Below, piece after piece: positions 25,042 through 39,183 of a DNA stretch of 64,000 nt (position 1 is the stretch's first letter; every line of letters starts with the position of its first letter). The stretch covers positions 612,522 through 676,521 of the forward strand of contig VCJN01002992.1 in assembly GCA_006384855.1 (NCBI GenBank), read 5' to 3'. The notes beneath the pieces are model-generated. The model ran no database searches. It was not told the origin of the DNA and was given only the letters and a program-made list of their open reading frames with translations. The position numbers were made by a program, and so were the translations under genes. This stretch comes from Tetraselmis striata. Taxonomy: Eukaryota > Chlorophyta > Chlorodendrophyceae > Chlorodendrales > Chlorodendraceae.

Positions 25042-25546
25042 CACGCTGTTGGTGGGTTGATGTGTCGCTTCGATGGTCGCCGGCTGTCAGGCTTACACTG
25101 AAGGTGACGAAGGCGTGCGAGGGCTCTAGGAAGACAAGTTGTTTGGTGCGATACCGGCTTGCGATCAACTCCTTCGCAGGCGGGCGCGGCTGTGAGTGGA
25201 CGAAGCGATGCCGGCGCGACGGGGCGGGCTGGCTGCCCGGGGGGCACTTGAGCGGGGCGGGGCTGTGAGCATAAGTATCTGCCCAGCATATAAAATATCT
25301 AATCCTTACTGAGCGCTGTAGTGAACTGCAAAAAGGCCAGGAGTAATAAATCCACCGCATATTACTGTAATAAAGCAGTACTAAAAGATCAACACAACAG
25401 CAAGCCGCCTAAAAGCGCCCCGCATCCCGTACTGAGTACTACTGGTGTTTTTTTTCGCCCTCGAGACAGGACTGGCAGTGAAACCCTTGCAGTGTCCATA
25501 CGACGGCCGGTTTGTCAGCAATCCAGTCATGTAAAGCCCTGGGTAC
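25042..25546. other. Upstream gap with one short repeat terminus
   Basis: The promoter of the membrane-protein gene should lie here; no box is recognisable. From 25,447 the sequence TTTTTTTTCGCCCTCGAGAC starts about 70 bp that match 49,600-49,670 and the left end of the MITE-like element at 10,090. Confidence 0.4.
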
Positions 25547-26338
25547 TGCCGCAGCATCCGTCATATCCGCGTGCGCGTGAAGAACGGGACAGCCAAGCCC
25601 TTCCGGGCCGGCTAGGGTTAAAGCTAGGGTTCCATACCCGGTTGAGACCACAGGCAGGGCACCTGATTGGTTAGGGTTCCATACCCTGGCCATAGCCCTG
25701 AGCGAGGCGCAAGGAGACATACATACCGGAGATCAGAGACCCGCCCAAGCACACCTAGGCGGGACTTCTAAGGGAACTCAGATAGCACCTCTATCGGGAC
25801 CTCTAACAGGGACCCCTAAGGTGGACTACCTGCAGAAGACGAAGTACTGTACTGCTGCTGGTACAAGGCGCAAGACTCACTGATGTAGCCGCAGCCGAGT
25901 AGTAGTATAGGACTTGATGAGTACAATTAGACAAGGGCAGTGCGTAATGCGTCTGGCGCGCGGTGCGCGCACGGCGCGCGTGCTATTAGCACTTAGCGTG
26001 ACGTGCGGCTGCCTTGCCATGGCTGCGATCGCGTGCTTATAGAGGGCCTCCGCCTTCTAGCGGTCCCTCTTCCCCCTTGTCTTGCCTGTGTGTGCCTGTG
26101 TTTGCCTATGACAGGCATAGGCAAGAGCCTGTGTACGGGACGGAGACGGTGTAAGAGACGGAGATCGGCTTGAGGAACGAGGGCCAAAGGTAATCACGGT
26201 AGCCTGCGTGCTTGTCGTACGGTCGCACGCGTGCTGCCCGCTGCATCGTGCGCGCGCGGTGCTGGTGGTGCTGGGTTGTCACCATTCGACCCGGTACCGA
26301 CGTAAAGTACTGTAGGAACGGTTGATAGCCGCGACCGG
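25547..26338 (+). repeat. LTR of the plus-strand Gypsy-like copy
   Basis: About 790 bp that recur, reversed and nearly identical, at 32,337-33,124. The repeat contains two direct copies of TAGGGTTCCATACCC near 25,626 and 25,672. Its orientation relative to each coding body is the same (LTR before leader here, LTR after pol there), which is why I read it as an LTR rather than a terminal inverted repeat. The exact outer ends and primer-binding site are not settled. Confidence 0.7.
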
Positions 26339-26939
26339 CACTGCATAAAGTACTGCACGGCGTGGCAGTGACCTGTGGTGAGAGGCTTCATTGCCACTGG
26401 CATTCACCCCCCTGAGTACGGGCAAGACCAGCAACGCTGGTCTGAACTAAAGCCCTATAGGCGTCTGAGAGGTGCCTGTAGTGACTTAGGTTCGCGTTCA
26501 GACAAGGGGGAAGAGCTCTCGTGGGTGAGAGTGAGTGCTAGAGGTGAGGAAAGGTCCAAGGGGTGTTGGAGACAAACCTATATGGGAACTGCTCGTAAGA
26601 GTACATAAGACTCGAAGGGTGAGGGGACAAAACCCACTAGAGGGTGGGCCAGGAAGGCCCTCGGACTAGTGAGGTGACGAGGTGTGGAGTGGTTCGAGTT
26701 TCCTTTTGGGTTTGGTGACGAGCGAGAGGCAAAGGGTTTGCCACCTCTGGGGACACTTTGTGTTTGTGCCTGAGCGAGCCGTGAACAACGGGGCATTGAG
26801 TGGGCGAAGGGCACTAACGTCAAGCTAAGTGTGTTGCTGAGTGGCTCTTTCACCCAGCGCGGCCTCTGAGTGAGAGCCGCGGCGTGCCGACGCTCTTTCA
26901 CCATCCCGCGGGAGGTGAGAGAGCGGCGTGTTCCTTTGG

Positions 26940-27030
26940 GTACCAATTGGCCTGCTCCGGTTCTTTTGGCCTGCTCCGGTTCTTTTGGCCTGCTCCAGTT
27001 CAACGACCTGCTCCAGTTCAACGGTTCAAC
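26940..27030 (+). repeat. Short tandem repeats in the retroelement leader
   Basis: The word GGCCTGCTCCGGTTCTTTT occurs about three times in a row, followed by two copies of CCTGCTCCAGTTCAACG. They lie between the LTR and Gag of the plus-strand copy. Confidence 0.8.
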
Positions 27031-27393
27031 GACGACAGGTGGTAGGAGGGAGGCAGGGCGTGAGCCCGGGAGTGGGAAGGCGCCGGCTTCACAGTCGTGT
27101 GTCAGTGCCGGAGTGCACTTGGAGGGAGCGGCATCGCCGCCTGAGGGCCCCGGCGAGGGTGACGGCTGGCGGGTGCGTGGCTCAGCTCGGTGCCAACCTC
27201 TTCGTGGCGGTGGTGTGGATCTGAGGTTCATCGGCACTGAGTTATACCGGACGCTGGAACTGTTCGTGTATCGGCTTGAGACGGGTGTGCGCCAACACCG
27301 GCGAAGCGACGCGGCAGCGGCCCTCAGATTTCTGAGGCCGCGTGGACGCAGCCCCACTTCTGAGCTTGAGGGCCCCGGCGTGGGCGACAGCCA

Positions 27394-30300
27394 GTGGACG
27401 CGCTGGAAAGCGCAGAGGGCGGCTTTGCCCTGGGCGACCTGTGGGCAGCACTGGACGAGCTGGAGGAAGACCAGCTGATCGAGGAGATCGTGAAGGGGCT
27501 GCTGAACGACGTAGACGCATCCAACCAGGAGGGTGAGGAGTGCGATCACGAGAACGCGTACGCATACAGCAGCAGCGAAGCAGAGGACAGCGGAGACGAC
27601 GAGGACGAGCTCTACTTTTCCCCGCTGCCAACACGCAACCCTAGGCGAGACACTTTGTACGGACACGCGTACTTTGTGGACGACGCAATGAGCGACGATG
27701 AAATGGAGCCGCGGAGGGGCAAGGGCTCCAGCGGGAGGTTGTGGGCGGGTCACGAGAAGGCGACCTCAGAGCACACGTTTGAGACGTGGAAGAACTCTAC
27801 GGACTGTGCCATGGAGAAGGAGCAACAACAGGCATTTGACCGCAACAGACCGTTCAACGAGATCCACGAGGTTCACGTGCTGCGGAGCCGCATTCAGCCA
27901 AAGTACTTGGAGTCGCTAGAGACTACACTCATCAGCCGGGGCATCAAGTACGAGGACTCGAGGATCGTACGGAGGCTGGAAGGCGCAGAACGGCTCGACT
28001 ACTACCGCCGGTTGTTGGACGGCATGTGGGAGGAGCTCGTCAACATCACCAAGCAGATCGAGCTGCATTCGGAGCGGTACAGCAAGTGCCATCGCTCGCC
28101 TGGTGAGACTGTGCGCGATTTCCGCAATCTGTTGCTAACGCACACCAGGGTCAAGAACCTGGTCACCGAGGAGACGACACGCATTGTGGAGATATCGCGC
28201 GTCAACGTGGAGTTCATCGAGCGGGCCTGGGGCAAGACGCGTTTCAGCCCCCGCATCAACTTCGCACAACAACAACTCGTGGACTACACGATGGACACCC
28301 AGGTGGACAGGACCTGGGAGATGGCTGAGTGGCTCGACAAGCAGGAGCGCGGCAGCATTCACATGCGCGCTCACTCGCGCGTCCAGAGCGGAGGCGGCAG
28401 GCGGGGTTTCGACCACGAGGAGCACAACAGCCGTGGTGGCGGTCGCGGCAGCAACAGCCGTGGTCGTGGAGGCAGCCACGGAGAGGGTGGCAACTACCAT
28501 CGACGTGGAGGTGGAGGAGGTGATCGTGGAGGCGGGCGCACGGAGAGGAGCGCTTACGCCCGTGATGGAGATGATGGTGGGCGAGGCAGCCACGTCAATG
28601 AGGCAGGTTGCTATGGTTGTGGGTCGAAAGATCACTACAAGAGCGACTGCCCTCTGTGGAGCAAGACGTGCTCTGAGTGTGGCAAGAAGGGCCACATTGC
28701 CAAGCGGTGCTGGAAGGCCAACCCTGATCTCCGTCCGGAGACCGCCATGGCAGCAACCAATCCCAGGGAGCACATCAGAGTGCGCGAGGAGCCCAAGAAG
28801 CCGGACCGCAAGTCGTGCATGATGTGTGGCAAGGATGCGGGCCATACAACTGAGGAGTGCGGGAAGCTGCGCAAGTTCGTTGCGAACTTGCAGGCGACAG
28901 ACGGCCACGAACCCAAGCACCCGCCGCTCAACGGCTATGCTCAAGTCGTCGGCAGCGAGGAGGGCGAGGTGGTGGGGCTGGCAGCAGCCAGCCAGTTGCG
29001 CCCACAGCGTAAGAGCACGGAGGCTCAACGCCATGGCGTCAACACGGTGCGCATGGAGGACGGAGAACGTGAGGCCAGGCAGCGGAGGCTGCCTCGCGGC
29101 TTCACCACCCCATCGATGGAGATGGCGCAGCAAATGCACAGCCGTACAGAGCTGACGGCGAAGCTTACCAGCGCAGCTCAGAGCGTAACGGTGCCTGTGT
29201 CACTGGCCAACGGCGGTGGACAGCCGCGCATGCCACTGATGGAGATCGCCAAGCGGCTGGTCAAGCACGAGCCCGTGGAGGATGGCTGGGAGAAGCATGC
29301 TGTCATGCGTGCTCTGGAGAGCAAGCGAGTCTCCATCAGCCTGATGGAGGCTTACCAGCTCGAGCGCAGCGGCGGCGGGATGATGGAGAGCGTCATGGCA
29401 ACAGCATGGGGCGGCGGTGCCCTGAGTACCGAGCCGATCAGCAGCCACGCTCACTCAGCCAGGACCTCGAGCGGGGAGCGCGCCTTCGAGGCAGCGCTGA
29501 TGATGGTGGAGGAGGTCGCTGACCAACAAAGCGGCGGCAAGTCTACCGCGGAGGAGAAGACCGCTGGCGGAGAGGCTGAGACTGAACGGTCTTTTGCCAT
29601 TTACCGGCCAGGTCAACTCGCGAGACAACGCGAGGAGGAGGAAGATCGCAAGCGTGCAAATGCGCAGCGCAATGCCAGCACGGCGGTTGAGGAGGCATCA
29701 GTATGTCGCCGCAGCGGCAAGTGGGAACCCGCCACTGACTATCGACGCAGTGCCACTGAGGCAGACATCAGGGAGCAAGCACTACGGCTGCCCAAAGGGT
29801 CTGAGACCCGACGCTGCCTGGAGCAGCAGGCGGAAGTCGCCCACAAGGGCATTTTTGCCCTTCAGCCCACGGGGGCTGAGGCGAAGGAGCAGCCGGAGAC
29901 GGCTCGGCTTGACACCATCACGTGCGAGTTGCACGCCAACAATACCCTGCTGCAGTGCGAGACCATTTCCGACGGCGGGAGCAGCCACACCCGCATGAAC
30001 GCGTCAGCGATGGAACCAAGCGCGGCGGAGGCCGTGGTGAAGGGCGCTGGCGGGTGGGTGGACGTCGACATGGTGGTGGTGCTCGCCAATGGCAAGCGCT
30101 CATGCGAGCAACAACGACGATTGCGGGATGGCGTGGTCTTCACGCTTCGGGACCCCGTCACCTCAATCATGGCAGCTCATCACGCACCGCGCGTGTACGA
30201 GAATGGAGGCGAGGCACCGGGCTTGCTGCTCGGTGGACCCACCATCACAGCCCTCGGGCTGCGACCGGACCCGGCGACCAGGATCTGCACTTTCCGCGCA

Positions 30301-30600
30301 CCCAACCGACCGGCCGGCAGAGTGCCACTGCTCAGTCAAACGGCGTGGGAGCGGCGGGTACGCGAGCACCAACCTGTGGTGCGCGTGGAGAGAGCGAGCT
30401 ACTGCCATGGGGTGGAGCTCGGCGATGATGAGATGGGGGAGGAGAGTGGGGGGGGCAGTGACGTGTCTCACAGCCACGCCGCCCACGAACCCTCACGGCG
30501 TGACGTGCAAGAGTCCAAGACTTGCGAGCCGGCAGACCTACCGCCTTTTCGGGAGGTGCAGAGCCTGCAGCGTCACGGGCTGGCGAGGCTGAGCACCCGC
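27394..30600 (+). CDS. Gag and protease-like region of the Gypsy-like copy
   Basis: A long open frame; the first in-frame ATG is at 27,688, though protein-like acidic sequence precedes it. Residues from about 130 to 330 form the Gag core (helical, charged), followed by an RGG-rich stretch at about 28,380-28,560. Three zinc knuckles follow at about 28,610-28,870: CYGCGSKDHYKSDC, CSECGKKGHIAKRC and CMMCGKDAGHTTEEC. These bind nucleic acid in the family. Near 29,930-30,100 the sequence has the build of an aspartic protease region (ETISDGGSSHTRMNASA), but the usual DTG triad is not clear, so the protease call is tentative. Confidence 0.75.
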
Positions 30601-30604
30601 GAAG

Positions 30605-31570
30605 AGGGCATCAGCCTGTACGAGCCATGTGGCGGAGGCTACGTTGCCGTGTTGAATGCCATGCTGGCCAACGGCCAGAAGGTGGCCAGATACCGGCATT
30701 CGGACATCGACCCGGCAGCCCGCAAGGCCGCTGGGCAGCGTGTTCAAGGAGCTCAGTAGGAGATATCCGGATCTACTACCAGCTAGCGCGATCAAGGGGT
30801 GGGACTCGTTTCCACAGGACATCACGGCGATCACAGCGGAGGACGTGAAGCGCCTGCCATACATAGACATAGTGGGGTGTGGATGGCCTTGCCCAGGCAT
30901 GAGCAGAGCCAATCGCAACGCGCTGGGATTGCGCGACCGGAGGTCACGTTTGCTCTTTCACGTGGCCGCGTTCATCGAGAAGCTCGAGGAGAAGCAGCCC
31001 ACCGGCGTGGGGTGGCTGCTGGAGAACGTGGATACGAGCGGAGACGAGAGACTGTACATCAAAGAGTCTGAGAAATACATCACGAAGATCATCGGGAGAG
31101 CGCTCGTGATTGATGAGGCGGGCTGTGGAGCGAATCATCACCGAGTGCGACGATTCTGGACGAACATGGGGGACGTGGAGAGACTGAAGTTGGCGTGGGA
31201 GAGGCGGGCGGACATGCAGCCACGACTGCTGCGAGAGGTGCTGCCACCGCACCTACGGCCGCATGTCAATCTGCCGACGCCACCCAACGGAGTTCGCGTC
31301 AACAAACCGGGGCAGCCACGCGCGTTGCCAACGATCTTGGCGCGATCGGACTCAGATGCCTACTCCGGCGAGGGGGCCGGCATGTTGTTCAACATCAACA
31401 CGGGCGAGTGGGAACGGCCCACTGTCCACCTGAAGGAGGAGCTTTTCGGTTACGAGCCGAACGTAATTCACGGCATATCGCTGCCGGACCATGAGCGCCT
31501 CATAGGCAATGCCATGGGTCTGCACAGCGTAGCGTGGATCGTCGGGCAGCTCTTCGTGGAGCAGCAGCGA
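30605..31570 (+). CDS. C5-cytosine DNA methyltransferase domain inside the retroelement
   Basis: Known family motifs appear in the right order. A SAM-binding region comes first (SLYEPCGGGYVAVLNAML with HSDIDPAA following). The catalytic loop is IVGCGWPCPGMSRANRN, with Cys in the PC pair near 30,890. The motif VI ENV is in WLLENVDT (31,020). The motif VIII-like stretch is HHRVRRFWTN (31,140). The motif X-like helix is LIGNAMGLHSVAWIVGQLF (31,500-31,556). Between VIII and X lies the target-recognition part. This family transfers a methyl group from SAM to C5 of cytosine in DNA. The domain sits between the protease-like stretch and reverse transcriptase. Capture of such enzymes by retrotransposons has been reported in some algae and dinoflagellates; whether this lineage is the same is not known to me. 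Confidence 0.85.
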
Positions 31571-31657
31571 CTGAGGGACTTGGAGGAGCTGGAGCGCGCA
31601 GCTCGGGCTGCCCAGGCAGCTCAGCGCGCGGAACGAGAGAGACGAGAGCAACGCAGG

Positions 31658-32336
31658 ATGCAGAGATCCTGCGGGAGAGCATGGCAGCAGCTGTGTCAAC
31701 AGGCGCTATGCTGCTGGCTGCTGCTCATTTGGTTGGGCGGCACGTCAATGCACTTCGGCGAGGCGAGTCGTCTCGGCAACACCACGGTGTTAGCCATGTT
31801 CGTGGCAGTGATGGTGCGCGCGAGCGCGCGCTACCGCCGCGAGGTGACGGCGACAAGCAGGGCGGGGCGCCGAGCTTTCGGCGCCAACGCCGTGTCGGAC
31901 GACGGCGGGACTGCGGAACGGAGTAGCGCTGCTGCGTGGGCCAATCGTGGCTACACGCAGGCAAGTATGAATGATCACGTGGAGGATGTTCGCAGCCTGA
32001 AGGATCCTGAGAAACACTGGCGGTGCGGGCGCGAGTGCGAGGCTTCACAGCAACAACAGCTAGTGGAGCTCTGCGACAGCTTTTGGGATGACGTGTGGGT
32101 GTGGTCCGTCAGCGACCTACCGGCCGTCAACCACTGGGAGTTCAGGATACCGACGACCAACACGCAGCCCATCAAGCGACCCAAGTACCGATTGAGCAAG
32201 ACTGAGTGGGACTTCGTGGACAGCTGGTGCAAGGAGCTGTTGGCAGCTGGGGCGATCCGCGAGAGCCAATCTCCCTACAGCATCCCAGTAGTGTGTCCAC
32301 CGAAGAAGGACGACGACGGCAACTGGACCGGGATCC
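31658..32336 (+). CDS. Linker and start of reverse transcriptase, plus-strand copy
   Basis: This 680-bp stretch is almost identical to 37,560-36,882 on the other strand. It starts with two hydrophobic segments (CCWLLLIWLGG and TTVLAMFVAVMV), then a linker, then the usual N-terminal RT words IRESQSPYSIPVV and PPKKDDDGNW. The copy ends here, before the catalytic core. Confidence 0.85.
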
Positions 32337-33124
32337 GGTCGCGGCTATCAACCGTTCCTACAGTACTTTACGTCGGTACCGGGTCGAATGGTGACAACCC
32401 AGCACCACCAGCAGCGCGCGCGCACGATGCAGCGGGCAGCACGCGTGCGACCGTACGACAAGCACGCAGGCTACCGTGATTACCTTTGGCCCTCGTTCCT
32501 CAAGCCGATCTCCGTCTCTTACACCGTCTCCGTCCCGTACACAGGCTCTTGCCTATGCCTGTCATAGGCAAACACAGGCACACACAGGCAAGACAAGGGG
32601 GAAGAGGGACCGCTAGAAGGCGGAGGCCCTCTATAAGCACGCGATCGCAGCCATGGCAAGGCAGCCGCACGTCACGCTAAGTGCTAATAGCACGCGCGCC
32701 GTGCGCGCACCGCGCGCCAGACGCATTACGCACTGCCCTTGTCTAATTGTACTCATCAAGTCCTATACTACTACTCGGCTGCGGCTACAGTGAGTCTTGC
32801 GCCTTGTACCAGCAGCAGTACAGTACTTCGTCTTCTGCAGGTAGTCCACCTTAGGGGTCCCTGTTAGAGGTCCCGATAGAGGTGCTATCTGAGTTCCCTT
32901 AGAAGTCCCGCCTAGGTGTGCTTGGGCGGGTCTCTGATCTCCGGTATGTATGTCTCCTTGCGCCTCGCTCAGGGCTATGGCCAGGGTATGGAACCCTAAC
33001 CAATCAGGTGCCCTGCCTGTGGTCTCAACCGGGTATGGAACCCTAGCTTTAACCCTAGCCGGCCCGGAAGGGCTTGGCTGTCCCGTTCTTCACGCGCACG
33101 CGGATATGACGGATGCTGCGGCAG
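32337..33124 (-). repeat. LTR of the minus-strand Gypsy-like copy
   Basis: The reversed, nearly identical partner of 25,547-26,338. A run of nine or ten C on the plus strand near 33,187-33,196 (a G run on the element strand) lies just upstream and may be the polypurine tract that primes plus-strand DNA in this order. Confidence 0.7.
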
Positions 33125-33128
33125 CTGC

Positions 33129-33185
33129 CGTCGCATGCTCGCATTCCCGCGTGGGGCGCTGTCACCAGCTCAATGGGCGGCCCAT
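33129..33185. repeat. 57-bp inverted repeat flanking the minus-strand copy
   Basis: About 57 bp here (ending CACCAGCTCAATGGGCGGCC) recur reversed at 37,602-37,658. The pair brackets the pol part of the minus-strand copy. It may belong to the LTR or to flanking DNA; I cannot decide. Confidence 0.7.
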
Positions 33186-33246
33186 CCCCCCCCCCCAGAC
33201 GGTTGGTCGCCAGAAGGGTGAACGGCCGCTGGGCGCCAATCGACGC

Positions 33247-36200
33247 TCAGTGATGCTGGTCGCCAGCGCACGCCTCGGTGTGGAAGTGAATTGACGCCAC
33301 GGAGTGACGCCACTCAGCTCGCAGTTCTCGCTCTCGCAGCTCGTTGTCGCGGAAGACCGCGAGCCACAGGGTTGATCGGCGCGTACTGCGGTTACGCTGC
33401 ATGTCGCCGGCAATAATGTGGAGCCGCCCACAGTCGCCTAGATGCCGTAGCCACTGCATGCGCGGGGAAGGTCCCTGCGCGATGTAGAAGATTGGTACTT
33501 GCACGAAAAGGATGTCCGCGCATGACGCCATGATTGGCAGCGCCAGATCAAGTAGTTGGAACCACGGGGAGGTCACCACTATGAAAGGGGCCTCTAACCG
33601 CGGCTGTGTTGTCATCATCGTTGTCGTCATCGTCGTCGTCATCATCGTCGTCATCGCCACAGTTGCGGTTACATCGCGAGCGCACTGGTACACAAAGGAT
33701 TCCAGCGCGTCCTCGCACATCTCAGTTTGGTACACCGGATTGAAGTCGTTGTTGATCACTGTCGCACCGCACGGCCGCAAGGCCTCAGCGGTGCTGCCAT
33801 GTCCCGCCCACGGATCAAAGATTACTCGGCCGCGCCAGCTGATCACGTTGGCTAGCGCAGCGTACTCGCTCACTTGGTTACTGATTGCCGGTAGATAGTC
33901 ATTGGCTGCTTGAAGGTTGTTCATCGTTCTTGTCACAGTTGCTGGGTGCCAGGCGCCAGGCATGCCCCAGTTCAGTCTTGCTGCCACTGCCGCTCTTGTC
34001 GGCTGCAAAGGCGGGGCAGGGTCTTGAATCTCCTCGTCGCTGTCGTCGTTGTCACTGATTGTTGTGGCGGCTAAAGCCACCGATGTCCACTGTGCCGGCA
34101 ACGCTGCGTCATCAGCGCTGCACTCCGCACACCGCCATGCCCCCCGCGGCACACGTGCCACAGGTGGCTGATGACACAACTTGTGCCAGCCTCGTTCACA
34201 GTCTTCGCAGATGATGATCGGGTTGCGCTGGGTGCTGACGCGCCCGTCGCACTCCTCGCACGCCATATTTGGGTCTTCAAATCCTGCTGGCAACACCACG
34301 TATGGAACGGCGCACCGCGCCAGCTCCTCAACGCGCACGCGCGCCGTGTCGCCGTCAGCTCCTTGGATGACCACCACTCCGTTGTCGTTCACCTCGTAAA
34401 CCTTGTAGACAGCCGGTCGCACTCGTGGATCGAGCGCGTCTTGCTGCCGCTGTTGCACGTAGACGAAGTCGCCGGGGCTGAAGCGTTGCACTCCGGGCGC
34501 CACCAACCCCGCGCGCCTCCTGCGATAGCGCATCACTTCACGATGCTGCGCCGCTTCCACGTTGTGCATCGCCGTCGGCACCATGAGCGCCAAACGCTCC
34601 GCGCGCACTGTCATCAGCTCCCACATGCCCTCCGGGCTGTTGAAGTCCACGGCGCTCTCCTCAAAGAGCGCTCTCGCCTGCGCGGGAAACACGGGTGCCC
34701 TGCCGTACACCAACTCGTATGGGCTGTACCTGGTGCTGGCTTGCTTGCTGCAACGGTAGCCCAGCTCGATGGAAGGCAGAAAAGTGTCCCACACGACGCG
34801 CTTGCCGGGCTGAACCACATAGCGCATCAGTGCCTCCTTGACTGTTTTCACCATCCCTTCCGCCAACCCATTGGGCTGCGGATGATAGGGCAGCGGCTTC
34901 GGATGATCGATGTCATGCTCCACGAGAAGCTCGTGGAACTCGCCGCTGAACTCGGTACCGCCGTCGGTACACACCTCGCCTGGTGCCGCGAAACGCGCCA
35001 GCACTCTCTCTTGAAAGGCTTGTCGTATGTTGGCTGCCTCCTTGGTGCGCAGCGGCACCAACTCCACCCACTTGCTCGCCGCTTCCACCATCACCAACAC
35101 CCAGACATTGCGACTGCGGGTGGCCTCAAAAGGCCCCGCCAAGTCCAAGTGCCAGCGGTAGAACATGCCGAAGTGCGGCAGCGGCTGCATGTCCAGCGGT
35201 GAGGCTGCCTTTGGGCGACCGCTGGTGCCGCCGGGTCGATGTTGCAGCCGATCGCAGTCCGGACACGCCTTCTTGACTCGGGCTACATCCTCCACCATCC
35301 CTGGCCAGAAATATGAAGCGGCGATAACACTGCGCAGCCGATCCCGCCCCAAATGGCCCATCTTGACATGCACATCCATAATCACCGTGTCTCGCTCACT
35401 GGGTGGCGGTACCTCGCGGTGCGTGCCGTCCTTGTGTAAATACCACAAGATGTTGTTTCTCCATGTATAGCGGGCATAAGGTTGCGGCATGTTGACGTTG
35501 CCCGCCTGCAGCTCCGCCATCGCCTCCGCGTCCATCCACGGATCGCCTCTCCGCGGTCCCGCCGTCAGCTCGCCGGTAACCGCCACCAAGTCGCCGTTGG
35601 CCGTGCCCTCATGGGCGGTGTCCAGCACGCGGCGTCGCGCCCATGCTGACAGCTCCGGCTGCCGGCTGCTCTGAGCCGTTGCGCACCAAAAGGCTGCCGC
35701 ATGTCGCACGGTGCCCTCCGGTGAAAACTCACCGCGCCCATCCAGCTCCGTTGGGTCGCCCTCCACGGGCCCCCGACTCAGACAATCTGCGTTGACGTGG
35801 TGAGCGCCCTTCCGATAGCGTACCACGAAGTCGTACTCGCTGAGCCTCATCGCCCACCGCGCCAACTTCCCACGAAGCTGAGCGGTGTTCATCAGCCATT
35901 CCAAAGGCCGATGATCTGTCACCACCACAAACTGCCTGCCAAACAGATAGTATCTGAACTTGTCCATGCCATACAACATGGCAAGACACTCACCCTCATA
36001 GCTGGCATAGTTGGGCTCCGCGCCTTGGCAGGTGCGGCTCGCAAACTCCACCACGTACTCCTGTCCTTCGTCGTCCTCCTGCGCCAACACCGCGCCCAAT
36101 CCAGCTCCGCTGAAATCGGTGTGCAGGATGAAAGGGCGGCTCCAATCCGGATTTCTCAGCACGGGAGCTGAAACCAGGTCTGCCTTGAGCTGCTCGAAGG

Positions 36201-37560
36201 CTCGTTGCTGCTCCGATCCCCACTCCCACGGCACCTTGCCAGTGAGCTTGGTCAGCGGCTTGCGCTTGACTGCAACTTGCTCGATGAACTTACCGTAGTA
36301 GCCCACCATGCCGAGGAAGCGCCGAAGCCCCGCAACGTCAGTCGGCGGCGGCATCTTCACCACAGCCTCCACCTTGGAGTGCTGCGGGAATACGCCTTCG
36401 CCGTCGACCCAATGGCCCAAGAAAGCAATCTGCCTCACGGCCATGCGCCCCTTGCCGGGCGCCAGTCTGATGCCCGCCGTTGCGAGCCTCTGAAACACCG
36501 TCTCCAAATGCTGAAGGTGCTGCTGAAACACCTCAGCGTCGCTCATCTCGGCTGCGCCTGAAAAGACACAGATGTCATCGGCGTAAACCGCCACGAACGG
36601 CAGATCGCCAAGGGCCTCATCCATGACACGCTGCCATGCTTGGCTGGCGTTCTTGAAGCCCATCGCCATCCGGCACCACTCATACTGCCGGTCGCTGCCC
36701 CAAAAGGCAGTCTTGTGTCGGTCCTCCTCTGCGATGGGCAGCTGATGAAACGCCGACTTGGCGTCAAACCCGCTGTACATGCGCGCGCCTGCGACCTTGC
36801 TGAGTAGCTCGTCTGTCTTGGGCATACAATACGCCCACGACTCAGTGACACTGTTCAACGGGCGAGCGTCCAAACACACCCGGATCCCGGTCCAGTTGCC
36901 GTCGTCGTCCTTCTTCGGTGGACACACTACTGGGATGCTGTAGGGAGATTGGCTCTCGCGGATCGCCCCAGCTGCCAACAGCTCCTTGCACCAGCTGTCC
37001 ACGAAGTCCCACTCAGTCTTGCTCAATCGGTACTTGGGTCGCTTGATGGGCTGCGTGTTGGTCGTCGGTATCCTGAACTCCCAGTGGTTGACGGCCGGTA
37101 GGTCGCTGACGGACCACACCCACACGTCATCCCAAAAGCTGTCGCAGAGCTCCACTAGCTGTTGTTGCTGTGAAGCCTCGCACTCGCGCCCGCACCGCCA
37201 GTGTTTCTCAGGATCCTTCAGGCTGCGAACATCCTCCACGTGATCATTCATACTTGCCTGCGTGTAGCCACGATTGGCCCACGCAGCAGCGCTACTCCGT
37301 TCCGCAGTCCCGCCGCCGTCCGACACGGCGTTGGCGCCGAAAGCTCGGCGCCCCGCCCTGCTTGTCGCCGTCACCTCGCGGCGGTAGCGCGCGCTCGCGC
37401 GCACCATCACTGCCACGAACATGGCTAACACCGTGGTGTTGCCGAGACGACTCGCCTCGCCGAAGTGCATTGACGTGCCGCCCAACCAAATGAGCAGCAG
37501 CCAGCAGCATAGCGCCTGTTGACACAGCTGCTGCCATGCTCTCCCGCAGGATCTCTGCAT
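33247..37560 (-). CDS. Pol polyprotein: RT, RNase H, integrase, PHD finger, methyltransferase-like domain (1,437 aa frame)
   Basis: Residues 1-60 include two hydrophobic segments. Reverse transcriptase spans about 195-385, with FDAKSAFHQLPI and the catalytic VYADD at 326. RNase H spans about 475-600, with HTDFSGAGLGAVL, EGECLAM and VVTDHRPLEW. Integrase spans 731-910: an HHCC zinc site (H731, H736 area to CPDC), then D in WHLDLAGP, D in CTDGGTEF and E in GLAEGMVK, with 35 residues between the last two, as in DDE enzymes. The order RT-RNase H-integrase is Gypsy-like. After it come a PHD finger (1101-1148) and a methyltransferase-like domain (1245-1400). The whole frame is open. Confidence 0.9.
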   Translation of the reverse strand: MQRSCGRAWQQLCQQALCCWLLLIWLGGTSMHFGEASRLGNTTVLAMFVAVMVRASARYRREVTATSRAGRRAFGANAVSDGGGTAERSSAAAWANRGYTQASMNDHVEDVRSLKDPEKHWRCGRECEASQQQQLVELCDSFWDDVWVWSVSDLPAVNHWEFRIPTTNTQPIKRPKYRLSKTEWDFVDSWCKELLAAGAIRESQSPYSIPVVCPPKKDDDGNWTGIRVCLDARPLNSVTESWAYCMPKTDELLSKVAGARMYSGFDAKSAFHQLPIAEEDRHKTAFWGSDRQYEWCRMAMGFKNASQAWQRVMDEALGDLPFVAVYADDICVFSGAAEMSDAEVFQQHLQHLETVFQRLATAGIRLAPGKGRMAVRQIAFLGHWVDGEGVFPQHSKVEAVVKMPPPTDVAGLRRFLGMVGYYGKFIEQVAVKRKPLTKLTGKVPWEWGSEQQRAFEQLKADLVSAPVLRNPDWSRPFILHTDFSGAGLGAVLAQEDDEGQEYVVEFASRTCQGAEPNYASYEGECLAMLYGMDKFRYYLFGRQFVVVTDHRPLEWLMNTAQLRGKLARWAMRLSEYDFVVRYRKGAHHVNADCLSRGPVEGDPTELDGRGEFSPEGTVRHAAAFWCATAQSSRQPELSAWARRRVLDTAHEGTANGDLVAVTGELTAGPRRGDPWMDAEAMAELQAGNVNMPQPYARYTWRNNILWYLHKDGTHREVPPPSERDTVIMDVHVKMGHLGRDRLRSVIAASYFWPGMVEDVARVKKACPDCDRLQHRPGGTSGRPKAASPLDMQPLPHFGMFYRWHLDLAGPFEATRSRNVWVLVMVEAASKWVELVPLRTKEAANIRQAFQERVLARFAAPGEVCTDGGTEFSGEFHELLVEHDIDHPKPLPYHPQPNGLAEGMVKTVKEALMRYVVQPGKRVVWDTFLPSIELGYRCSKQASTRYSPYELVYGRAPVFPAQARALFEESAVDFNSPEGMWELMTVRAERLALMVPTAMHNVEAAQHREVMRYRRRRAGLVAPGVQRFSPGDFVYVQQRQQDALDPRVRPAVYKVYEVNDNGVVVIQGADGDTARVRVEELARCAVPYVVLPAGFEDPNMACEECDGRVSTQRNPIIICEDCERGWHKLCHQPPVARVPRGAWRCAECSADDAALPAQWTSVALAATTISDNDDSDEEIQDPAPPLQPTRAAVAARLNWGMPGAWHPATVTRTMNNLQAANDYLPAISNQVSEYAALANVISWRGRVIFDPWAGHGSTAEALRPCGATVINNDFNPVYQTEMCEDALESFVYQCARDVTATVAMTTMMTTTMTTTMMTTQPRLEAPFIVVTSPWFQLLDLALPIMASCADILFVQVPIFYIAQGPSPRMQWLRHLGDCGRLHIIAGDMQRNRSTRRSTLWLAVFRDNELRERELRAEWRHSVASIHFHTEACAGDQHH
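33361..33828 (-). other. Second methyltransferase-like domain at the Pol C terminus
   Basis: Residues about 1245-1400 of the Pol frame. VIFDPWAGHGSTAEAL followed by ATVINNDFNP has the build of a SAM-binding motif I with the acidic residue after strand 2. FIVVTSPWFQLLDLALP has the build of motif IV, where amino-methyltransferases carry (D/N/S)PP(Y/W/F). ADILFVQVPIFYI and then RSTLWLAVF fit later strands. A Met/Thr-rich stretch coded by an ATCGTC-like repeat interrupts the fold. This resembles DNA N6-adenine methyltransferases in outline; the second P of the motif is replaced by W. Activity is unproven. Confidence 0.55.
34117..34260 (-). other. PHD-type zinc finger in Pol
   Basis: Residues about 1101-1148 of the Pol frame: CEEC, then CEDCERGWHKLCH, then WRCAEC. 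This gives the C4-H-C3 order and the conserved W two before the last Cys pair that define PHD fingers. Such fingers bind histone H3 tails. It sits just after integrase, where other Gypsy elements carry a chromodomain, so a role in choosing insertion sites in chromatin is a fair inference. Confidence 0.8.
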
Positions 37561-37576
37561 CCTGCGTTGCTCTCGT

Positions 37577-38431: not shown

Positions 38432-38516
38432 TCATGGCCGGCTCTCAATTGGAAAGTAGGCGCGGCCGCTTAAGTGCCTACGCGCACACATGAGGCCGCT
38501 TGCGGCAGGAAGCGGC

Positions 38517-39183
38517 TTAGTCACCCACCGCATCATCATCAGCATCGCTGGAAGCATCATCCTCGACATCATCATCACACTCCGAATCCGCCGCCTCGGA
38601 GGAGGAGTGGCCACCCTCCTCCTCCTCCTCCTCCTCCTCGGTTTCCTCCTCCTCATCATCATATTCATCCTCCTCCCCCTCCTCCTCCTCCTCCTCCTCC
38701 TCCTCCTCCTCCCCCTCCCCCTCCTCCTCCTCCCCCTCCCCCTCTTCCTCCTCCTCCTCCCCCTCCTCCTCCTCCTCCTCCTCCTCCTCCTCCTCCTCCT
38801 CCTCATCATCATCATCATCATCATCATCCTCGCCAACGGGATTGGCGAAATCCTCACTGGCCTCGACTTGCTCGTTTTCCTCAGTGGCGTGGCCATCATC
38901 TTGCCCCGCAGCAATACTCTTGCCCACATGTGCCAGCGAAGAGAGTTCTTGCGTCGCTTTTTGGTCCAATCATAGGGAAGGTTATCGATGACATCTCTTC
39001 CCGCTTTACGCTTTGCGGCTCTCTCTTCGGCCGACAAGTTTTTATCTCCCGGATCTCCTCGGGTAGGCCGTGAACGTGATTTGCCCTCCGCGGCCAACAT
39101 TTTGGCGGAGAGATTTTCCCCTTTTCCCCCTTTCGATCTCGAGGCAGCCGCTCGGAGCGCCTCCAGGTCTGTGCTATCTGGAG
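38517..39183 (-). CDS. Acidic low-complexity nuclear-type protein, 3' part
   Basis: An acceptor-like GTCTCCAG precedes 39,183. The first part reads STDLEALRAAASRSKGGKG, KMLAAEGKSRSRPTRGD and AKRKAGRDVIDNLPYDW, a basic region. The second part, in another frame, reads GQDDGHATEENEQVEASED and then a very long Asp/Glu run to a stop at 38,517. The frame changes near 38,957, at a run of five A on the coding strand; either an intron or a one-base homopolymer error could explain it. Acidic tails of this type occur in histone chaperones and nucleolar proteins, but no domain supports a specific name. A poly(A) site and 5' exons were not found. Confidence 0.45.
38615..38832. repeat. CCT/CAT microsatellite
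   Basis: About 220 bp of CTC/CCT units ending in ATC units. On the minus strand it encodes the Glu and Asp runs of the acidic protein. The poly-Pro and poly-Leu frames on the plus strand are artefacts of it. Confidence 0.9.

Follow-up and report, generated by a model that had tools for sequence, protein, structure and literature searches.

Separate parts of the element described here are already known singly in other retroelements: a DNA methyltransferase (DNMT) in retrotransposons (PMC5890265), a PHD finger in the first open reading frame (ORF1) of long interspersed nuclear elements (LINEs; PMC4120745) and an adenine methyltransferase in DIRS elements. KnitGypsy-Dnmt3 of Klebsormidium nitens (de Mendoza 2018, PMC5890265) is a Gypsy long terminal repeat (LTR) element from an alga of the green lineage; its Pol ORF includes a cytosine DNMT, and purifying selection on it was reported. 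DNMT3 is also described in Copia and DIRS elements in a paper that, in the text available, names neither Tetraselmis nor Cymbomonas (PMC12344493). Chromoviruses carry a chromatin-reader module directly after integrase (PMC3605345), LTR elements without a chromodomain are described from bdelloids (PMC5408684), and the PHD finger of PMC3286476 belongs to a host gene near an insertion. Here we describe a retrotransposon in a stretch of 64,000 nucleotides from the green alga Tetraselmis striata (assembly GCA_006384855.1, contig VCJN01002992.1, positions 612,522 to 676,521, forward strand; the whole stretch is called the window, and coordinates are given within it). We consider it fairly probable that it represents a gypsy family with a C5 DNMT at the start of Pol, in which a PHD finger would tether integrase to nucleosomes and an amino-methyltransferase at the Pol tail would mark the new insertion.

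The domains in question are encoded on the minus strand by a Pol ORF piece of 1437 amino acids (aa; protein P0001, 33247..37560), found by ORF scan and annotated with Pfam. It contains a reverse transcriptase (PF00078, 36409..36918, 82 bits), RNase H (PF17917/PF17919, 35833..36222, E 1.1e-34 and 1.2e-32) and an integrase (34291..35409) with an H2C2 zinc site, the DDE core (PF00665) and a C-terminal SH3-like part, the last assigned by eye together with a weak MLVIN_C match. The order of reverse transcriptase, RNase H and DDE integrase found by Pfam is that of Ty3/gypsy elements, and by its sequence the element is a Ty3/gypsy LTR retrotransposon of a family of green algae. At the three DDE positions that we chose (806, 866 and 901), the residues are intact in all 18 genomic copies that cover them, the other two of 20 aligned copies lacking coverage. 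Scanning of three proteins matched no model of a tyrosine recombinase, the mark of DIRS elements, at E <= 1, and Pol has an rve integrase. After the integrase no chromodomain model was matched in Pfam at E <= 1; a PHD finger occupies that place.

The PHD finger (34120..34260, minus strand; residues 1101-1147 of P0001), recognized by Pfam and by alignment, scores 27.5 bits against a cut-off of 24, and all eight C4HC3 ligands are present, as is the aromatic residue two before the last cysteine pair. A reading of this locus made from its letters alone (the sequence-only reading) had proposed a PHD finger at this point, where many Gypsy elements have a chromodomain, and its zinc ligands are indeed conserved: all eight are intact in 18 of the 20 copies, with L026 and L027 each missing one. 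The nearest fingers by sequence are those of DPF3 and ATXR5. Readers of trimethylated lysine 4 of histone H3 usually have a cage aromatic two residues before the PHD histidine. In the window finger that residue is a glycine, and since the position is non-aromatic in seven of the nine fingers compared, the window's included, the residue pattern makes a reader of the unmodified H3 tail the likelier prediction for this subfamily. Histone specificity may, judging from the same position, differ between lineages.

An acidic linker (33976..34119) leads to the tail domain (33277..33975; residues 1196-1428), both on the minus strand; in the linker a Tudor-like match (PF21743) was seen only in P0024 among 10 proteins scanned, at E 0.0062 and 16.7 bits, below the cut-off of 27.2. 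The tail domain was recognized as class I amino-methyltransferase-like through its relatives and its predicted fold. In such enzymes motif I forms the S-adenosylmethionine (SAM) site, an acidic residue follows strand 2 (motif II), and motif IV is the catalytic tetrad, usually (N/D/S)PP(Y/F/W), with S in first place in cytosine-N4 enzymes. We aligned 20 methyltransferase domains (alignment A4), in which the others share 27-69% identity with that of the window; left outside were the close Tetraselmis copies P0011-P0014, P0017 and P0027, together with P0031 (closely resembling P0029), P0035 (incomplete at its end) and P0036 (a fragment). This alignment places motif I at IFDPWAGHGST (33790..33822) and motif IV at TSPWF (33559..33573). 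P1332, D1338, R1367, R1379 and W1399 are invariant in all 20 rows, while D1249 and P1250 of motif I and the acid D1272 are found in 19, the remaining row being a gap in the case of motif I. In motif IV the P is kept in 20 rows, the F in 19 and the S in 18, and S-P-x-F as a whole in 18. One structure prediction, for the first row of A4, with matches taken from Foldseek ('pdb_via'), yielded a Rossmann-like class I SAM methyltransferase fold with motif I and an acidic residue after strand 2; the tail domain is therefore predicted to be a methyltransferase fold, and the structure matches agree with the SAM-like fold that had been suspected after the finger.

Profile searches with the relatives lead to families named DNA methyltransferase. 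The phage DNA methyltransferase family phrog_799 matches nine of the 20 domains at E <= 1 (best 2.1e-8), phrog_11619 is a second such family in PHROGs, and residues 77-215 of P0033 link to phage DNA methyltransferases at E 2.9e-8. P0033 also matches the D12 adenine methylase family PF02086 at 23.9 bits (cut-off 22), in the motif I region only. When PDB profiles were searched with A4, all 11 matches were weak (best E 0.073). Searches of limited reach, which are silent on the origin of the domain, found no relative in viral contigs (queries A1, P0030 and P0018), in prokaryote genome contigs (A1 and P0033) or in phage records (P0030).

The pairing of finger and methyltransferase-like domain is not confined to the window. 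The tail-domain profile found 17 proteins and a wider profile 15, partly overlapping, and P0024 from Cymbomonas tetramitiformis is one of these proteins. A PHD finger followed by the same domain is present in the divergent proteins P0018, P0023, P0024, P0028, P0029, P0032 and P0035, the fingers of P0023 (22.7 bits) and P0035 (22.4 bits) falling slightly under the Pfam cut-off; the same C-terminal set exists in other Tetraselmis copies and in another green alga. P0018 and P0032 start in an apparent C-terminal part of integrase and continue with PHD and methyltransferase, and the equivalent region of Tetraselmis copies with 1771-aa frames is matched by P0018 over its residues 2-135. Precomputed Pfam annotation gives DNMT (PF00145), reverse transcriptase, RNase H, integrase and PHD in P0002 (1732 aa, 61% over the tail), and the last four of these in P0008 (1634 aa, 37%), whose start aligns to the DNMT of P0002.

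Whole-genome profile searches, in which counts of places are lower bounds, found the same PHD score as the window's at no fewer than 31 places, the window included. Of the 102 PHD places listed, 11 lie in open frames of 1771 aa and 15 in frames of 1753-1799 aa. Twenty regions were fetched and compared with the window, and 20 of these 21 stretches were aligned (L025 had no match); because the regions were hand-picked from the 102 places for long frames and divergent scores, proportions among them are not those of a random sample. TSPWF is kept in 19 of the aligned copies and FDPWAGHG in 18, in line with the two motifs picked out by the sequence-only reading. Eight of the 20 match nearly all of P0001 unbroken and stop-free. 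L009 (C470), L011 (C1767), L014 (C1944) and L024 (C2631) align stop-free to P0008 in one stretch from DNMT through tail; L017 and L018 align likewise, with stops. Two copies were tested for LTRs. The one at C1240:83773-95252 has direct LTRs of 953 bp, its ORF1 measures 1121 aa, and its PHD lies in a frame of 1771 aa; it is probably recent, because its LTRs are 100% identical. The C470 copy showed no LTR match between its flanks as fetched. By eye, no clear target-site duplication of 4-6 bp was apparent in the flanks of one copy. In addition, a decayed and distinct gypsy relative (L008/L033, C706:65595-65732) has a PHD after its integrase, and its fetched stretch gave no methyltransferase match at E <= 1e-4.

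Ratios of nonsynonymous to synonymous changes (N/S) were computed from unique changes relative to L009 in 15 of the 20 copies, excluding L015, L020, L021, L026 and L028. They were 0.47 for reverse transcriptase through integrase (the core) and 0.44 for PHD plus methyltransferase (the tail); within the tail, the PHD alone gave 0.36, and two portions of the methyltransferase gave 0.43 and 0.51. Six copies with stops gave 0.47 for core and 0.43 for tail; nine stop-free copies gave 0.21 and 0.29 (PHD 0.44 on 8 changes, methyltransferase 0.27), or 0.12 and 0.27 when L013, which aligned in two pieces, was omitted. On these comparisons the tail is under purifying selection, perhaps weaker than that acting on the core.

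The copies also bear on the idea that the Pol frame became fused by chance to an adjacent host gene, that the tail is a misread frame, or that an annotated intron takes it out. A protein search returned T. striata gene models (Tetstr1) 96-100% identical over the covered part (50% or 8% of the query), and in Tetraselmis models, including P0003-P0007, the first PHD half is joined to sequence past motif I. This skips 147 codons from the second PHD half to motif I within 33250-34260 (minus strand), and GT and AG can be seen by eye at the two junctions. This gap, which is either a real isoform or a prediction artefact, is what speaks for such an origin. The idea is nevertheless largely refuted, and we regard it as very improbable, given the 15 places at which the PHD lies in a frame of 1753-1799 aa, the motifs kept in 18 or 19 of 20 copies, the N/S ratios and the recurrence of the pair in distant relatives.

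The family also has a cytosine methyltransferase at the other end of Pol, seen in the window on the plus strand. ORF1 (27394..30759) encodes a Gag of 1121 aa with a zinc knuckle (PF00098); ORF2 overlaps it and begins with a C5 DNMT followed by the start of Pol (30656..32338, ORF2 continuing to 32479). ORF2 matches PF00145 at 24.1 bits (cut-off 22) and phrog_116 at 1e-8, and contains the C5 motifs PC at 30887, ENV at 31022 and RVRR within 31136-31159. Its match to phrog_363 (327 positions) begins at position 101. At the end of ORF1, in another frame and where no PHROGs profile was matched, stand SDID and a stretch that by eye resembles motif I, SLYEPCGGGYV (30613-30645); the DNMT looks split across the ORF1/ORF2 overlap (30656-30759, region 30613-30759). 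We suggest, from the arrangement of the frames, that a complete working DNMT could be formed only by a Gag-Pol frameshift. PF00145 is found at 123 or more places genome-wide, and many matches in long frames start at profile position 44-49, in keeping with a like split in further families. On the other hand, a Copia-type frame (L065) with a motif I-like stretch in frame matches PF00145 only from position 36, and a poor match at the N-terminus could therefore account for the appearance by itself. In L065 (C1197:1000-8200, minus strand) rve precedes RVT_2, which is the Copia order, and a C5 DNMT lies in frame ahead of integrase; several other frames of ~2299 aa have PF00145 at the same profile positions. 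The length of 1771 aa equals the sum of the 334 residues ahead of the shared methionine and the 1437 of P0001, and the DNMT therefore belongs to the frame that contains the PHD.

Taken as a working model, the PHD would ride on the integrase complex (intasome) and hold it to nucleosomes, doing the job that the chromodomain does in chromoviruses. The tail methyltransferase would then methylate an amino group (adenine N6 or cytosine N4) in the new cDNA or the target site, and the DNMT at the other end would add 5-methylcytosine (5mC) to the new insertion, which, so marked, might escape destruction or be read by the host in a chosen way. The element may thus choose its landing site and mark its own copies. 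The fullest version, one polyprotein uniting a frameshift-completed C5 DNMT, an integrase-bound H3 reader and an N6-adenine or N4-cytosine methyltransferase that picks chromatin and writes two DNA marks on each new copy, strikes us as conceivable and rather doubtful. The earlier proposal of a second methyltransferase joined to a reader stands as to anatomy, the family having both the C5 DNMT and the tail fold; the roles of reader and writer are predictions.

Several observations weigh against tethering and marking. No family of Pfam, PHROGs or NCBIfam is matched by the window's own tail domain (after the PHD, P0001 has no Pfam model at E <= 1), so that its identity as a methyltransferase is reached through relatives and the predicted fold; because the Tetraselmis member matches no model of these three libraries, annotation pipelines would miss it. 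The window's motif IV reads SPWF; the third residue differs among the domains (W, P, F, R, S, H, L), and the canonical SPPF occurs in one of the 20 rows (P0033, TSPPF). In P0008 motif IV is replaced by TAPTSV and the ENV of the DNMT by EHV, and catalysis is therefore not required in every lineage. An aromatic residue (F or Y) stands at the cage position in two of the nine fingers, P0029 and P0035. Constraint on the tail of stop-free copies is perhaps looser than on their core, but Fisher's test lends no support to this difference (p 0.54 for nine copies, 0.70 for all 15). The same domain (VTSPWF) is also present in further multicopy Tetraselmis families in ORFs without a PHD in frame (L034, L035, L044 and L048, on C891, C2453, C552 and C155).

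The unusual motif IV and its loss in P0008, the missing profile match and the possibly looser constraint would suit a methyltransferase fold that is decayed or structural, binding DNA or Gag-Pol partners but catalysing no reaction, and that leaves the real work to the PHD. We think this unlikely, though a serious candidate, since the D of motif I, D1272 and the P, S and F of motif IV persist in relatives down to 27% identity, the N/S ratios stay below 1, and P0033 has the canonical tetrad. All PHD ligands of P0008 are intact despite its altered DNMT and tail, and the finger may outlast the writers. The ORFs adjoining the L048 and L035 methyltransferases are alike by eye and match no Pfam family; a dioxygenase-like reading of the one beside L048 was rejected, as its H..D is not conserved in L035 and Pfam finds nothing, and the stretch further upstream (L064) was uninformative.

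The top fold matches include RNA methyltransferases besides a DNA one, with tied Z, which also tells against a DNA target. LTR elements package RNA, and the tail enzyme could place N6-methyladenine (6mA in DNA, m6A in RNA) or a related mark on the RNA of the element itself, with effects on its stability, translation or packaging. A role on RNA seems to us slightly less probable still than a non-catalytic fold: the sequence links lead to phrog_799, phrog_11619 and PF02086, the domain adjoins the PHD at the integrase end, and the ORF also contains a C5 DNMT.

The window copy (25546-37576) consists of two rearranged, head-to-head pieces with a truncated LTR at their junction near 32337, a layout due to rearrangement or misassembly. 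The plus-strand piece has an LTR (25546..26501, ends approximate, 99.3% identical to the 953-bp LTR of the C1240 copy), ORF1 and the start of ORF2 with the DNMT; the minus-strand piece has Pol through its end and most of an LTR (32337..33123, ~788 of 953 bp by LTR comparison). They have 697 bp of the Pol start in common, 100% identical as rounded, and differ at the 82nd residue from the shared methionine. Auto-integration of an LTR end was rejected as the origin, because the minus-strand LTR ends ~788 bp into its 953 bp and the junction is therefore no LTR end. Beyond the element, a low-complexity tract with Glu-, Pro- and Arg-rich frames (38490-39070) is likely a simple repeat and not a gene.

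An element with PHD and methyltransferase after integrase was not found in the titles and starts of abstracts of the papers listed by searches of the open-access literature, most subscription journals lying outside this scope, which agrees with the earlier statement that the set is undescribed. If the proposed reading is true, a single Pol polyprotein would unite integrase, chromatin reader and DNA writer, the element having a 5mC enzyme as well. It would then be possible to test directly whether retroelements mark their own DNA, whether mobile elements contribute part of the 6mA or N4-methylcytosine of algae, and whether integration can be steered by a PHD in the way that it is by chromodomains. 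For KnitGypsy-Dnmt3, by contrast, the main text (PMC5890265) uses 'phd' 0 times and, as available, names no second methyltransferase; its DNMT is Dnmt3 and its repeats are described as DIRS-like. The Tetraselmis DNMT is placed at the level of PF00145. DIRS retrotransposons, as cited there, resemble our element in having an amino-type (Dam-like adenine) DNA methyltransferase, a likeness by description only, and differ in using a tyrosine recombinase in place of a DDE integrase. CR1/L2 LINEs (PMC4120745) also have a PHD, with a suggested role in targeting, although they are non-LTR elements with the finger in ORF1 and no methyltransferase named in the text available. A PHD reader is coupled to a DNA adenine methyltransferase in ichthyosporean AMT1 and its partner p1 (PMC12695648), a host complex of separate proteins and not a retroelement. 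Where chromoviruses have a chromodomain after integrase (PMC3605345), the Tetraselmis element has a PHD finger and then a methyltransferase-like domain.
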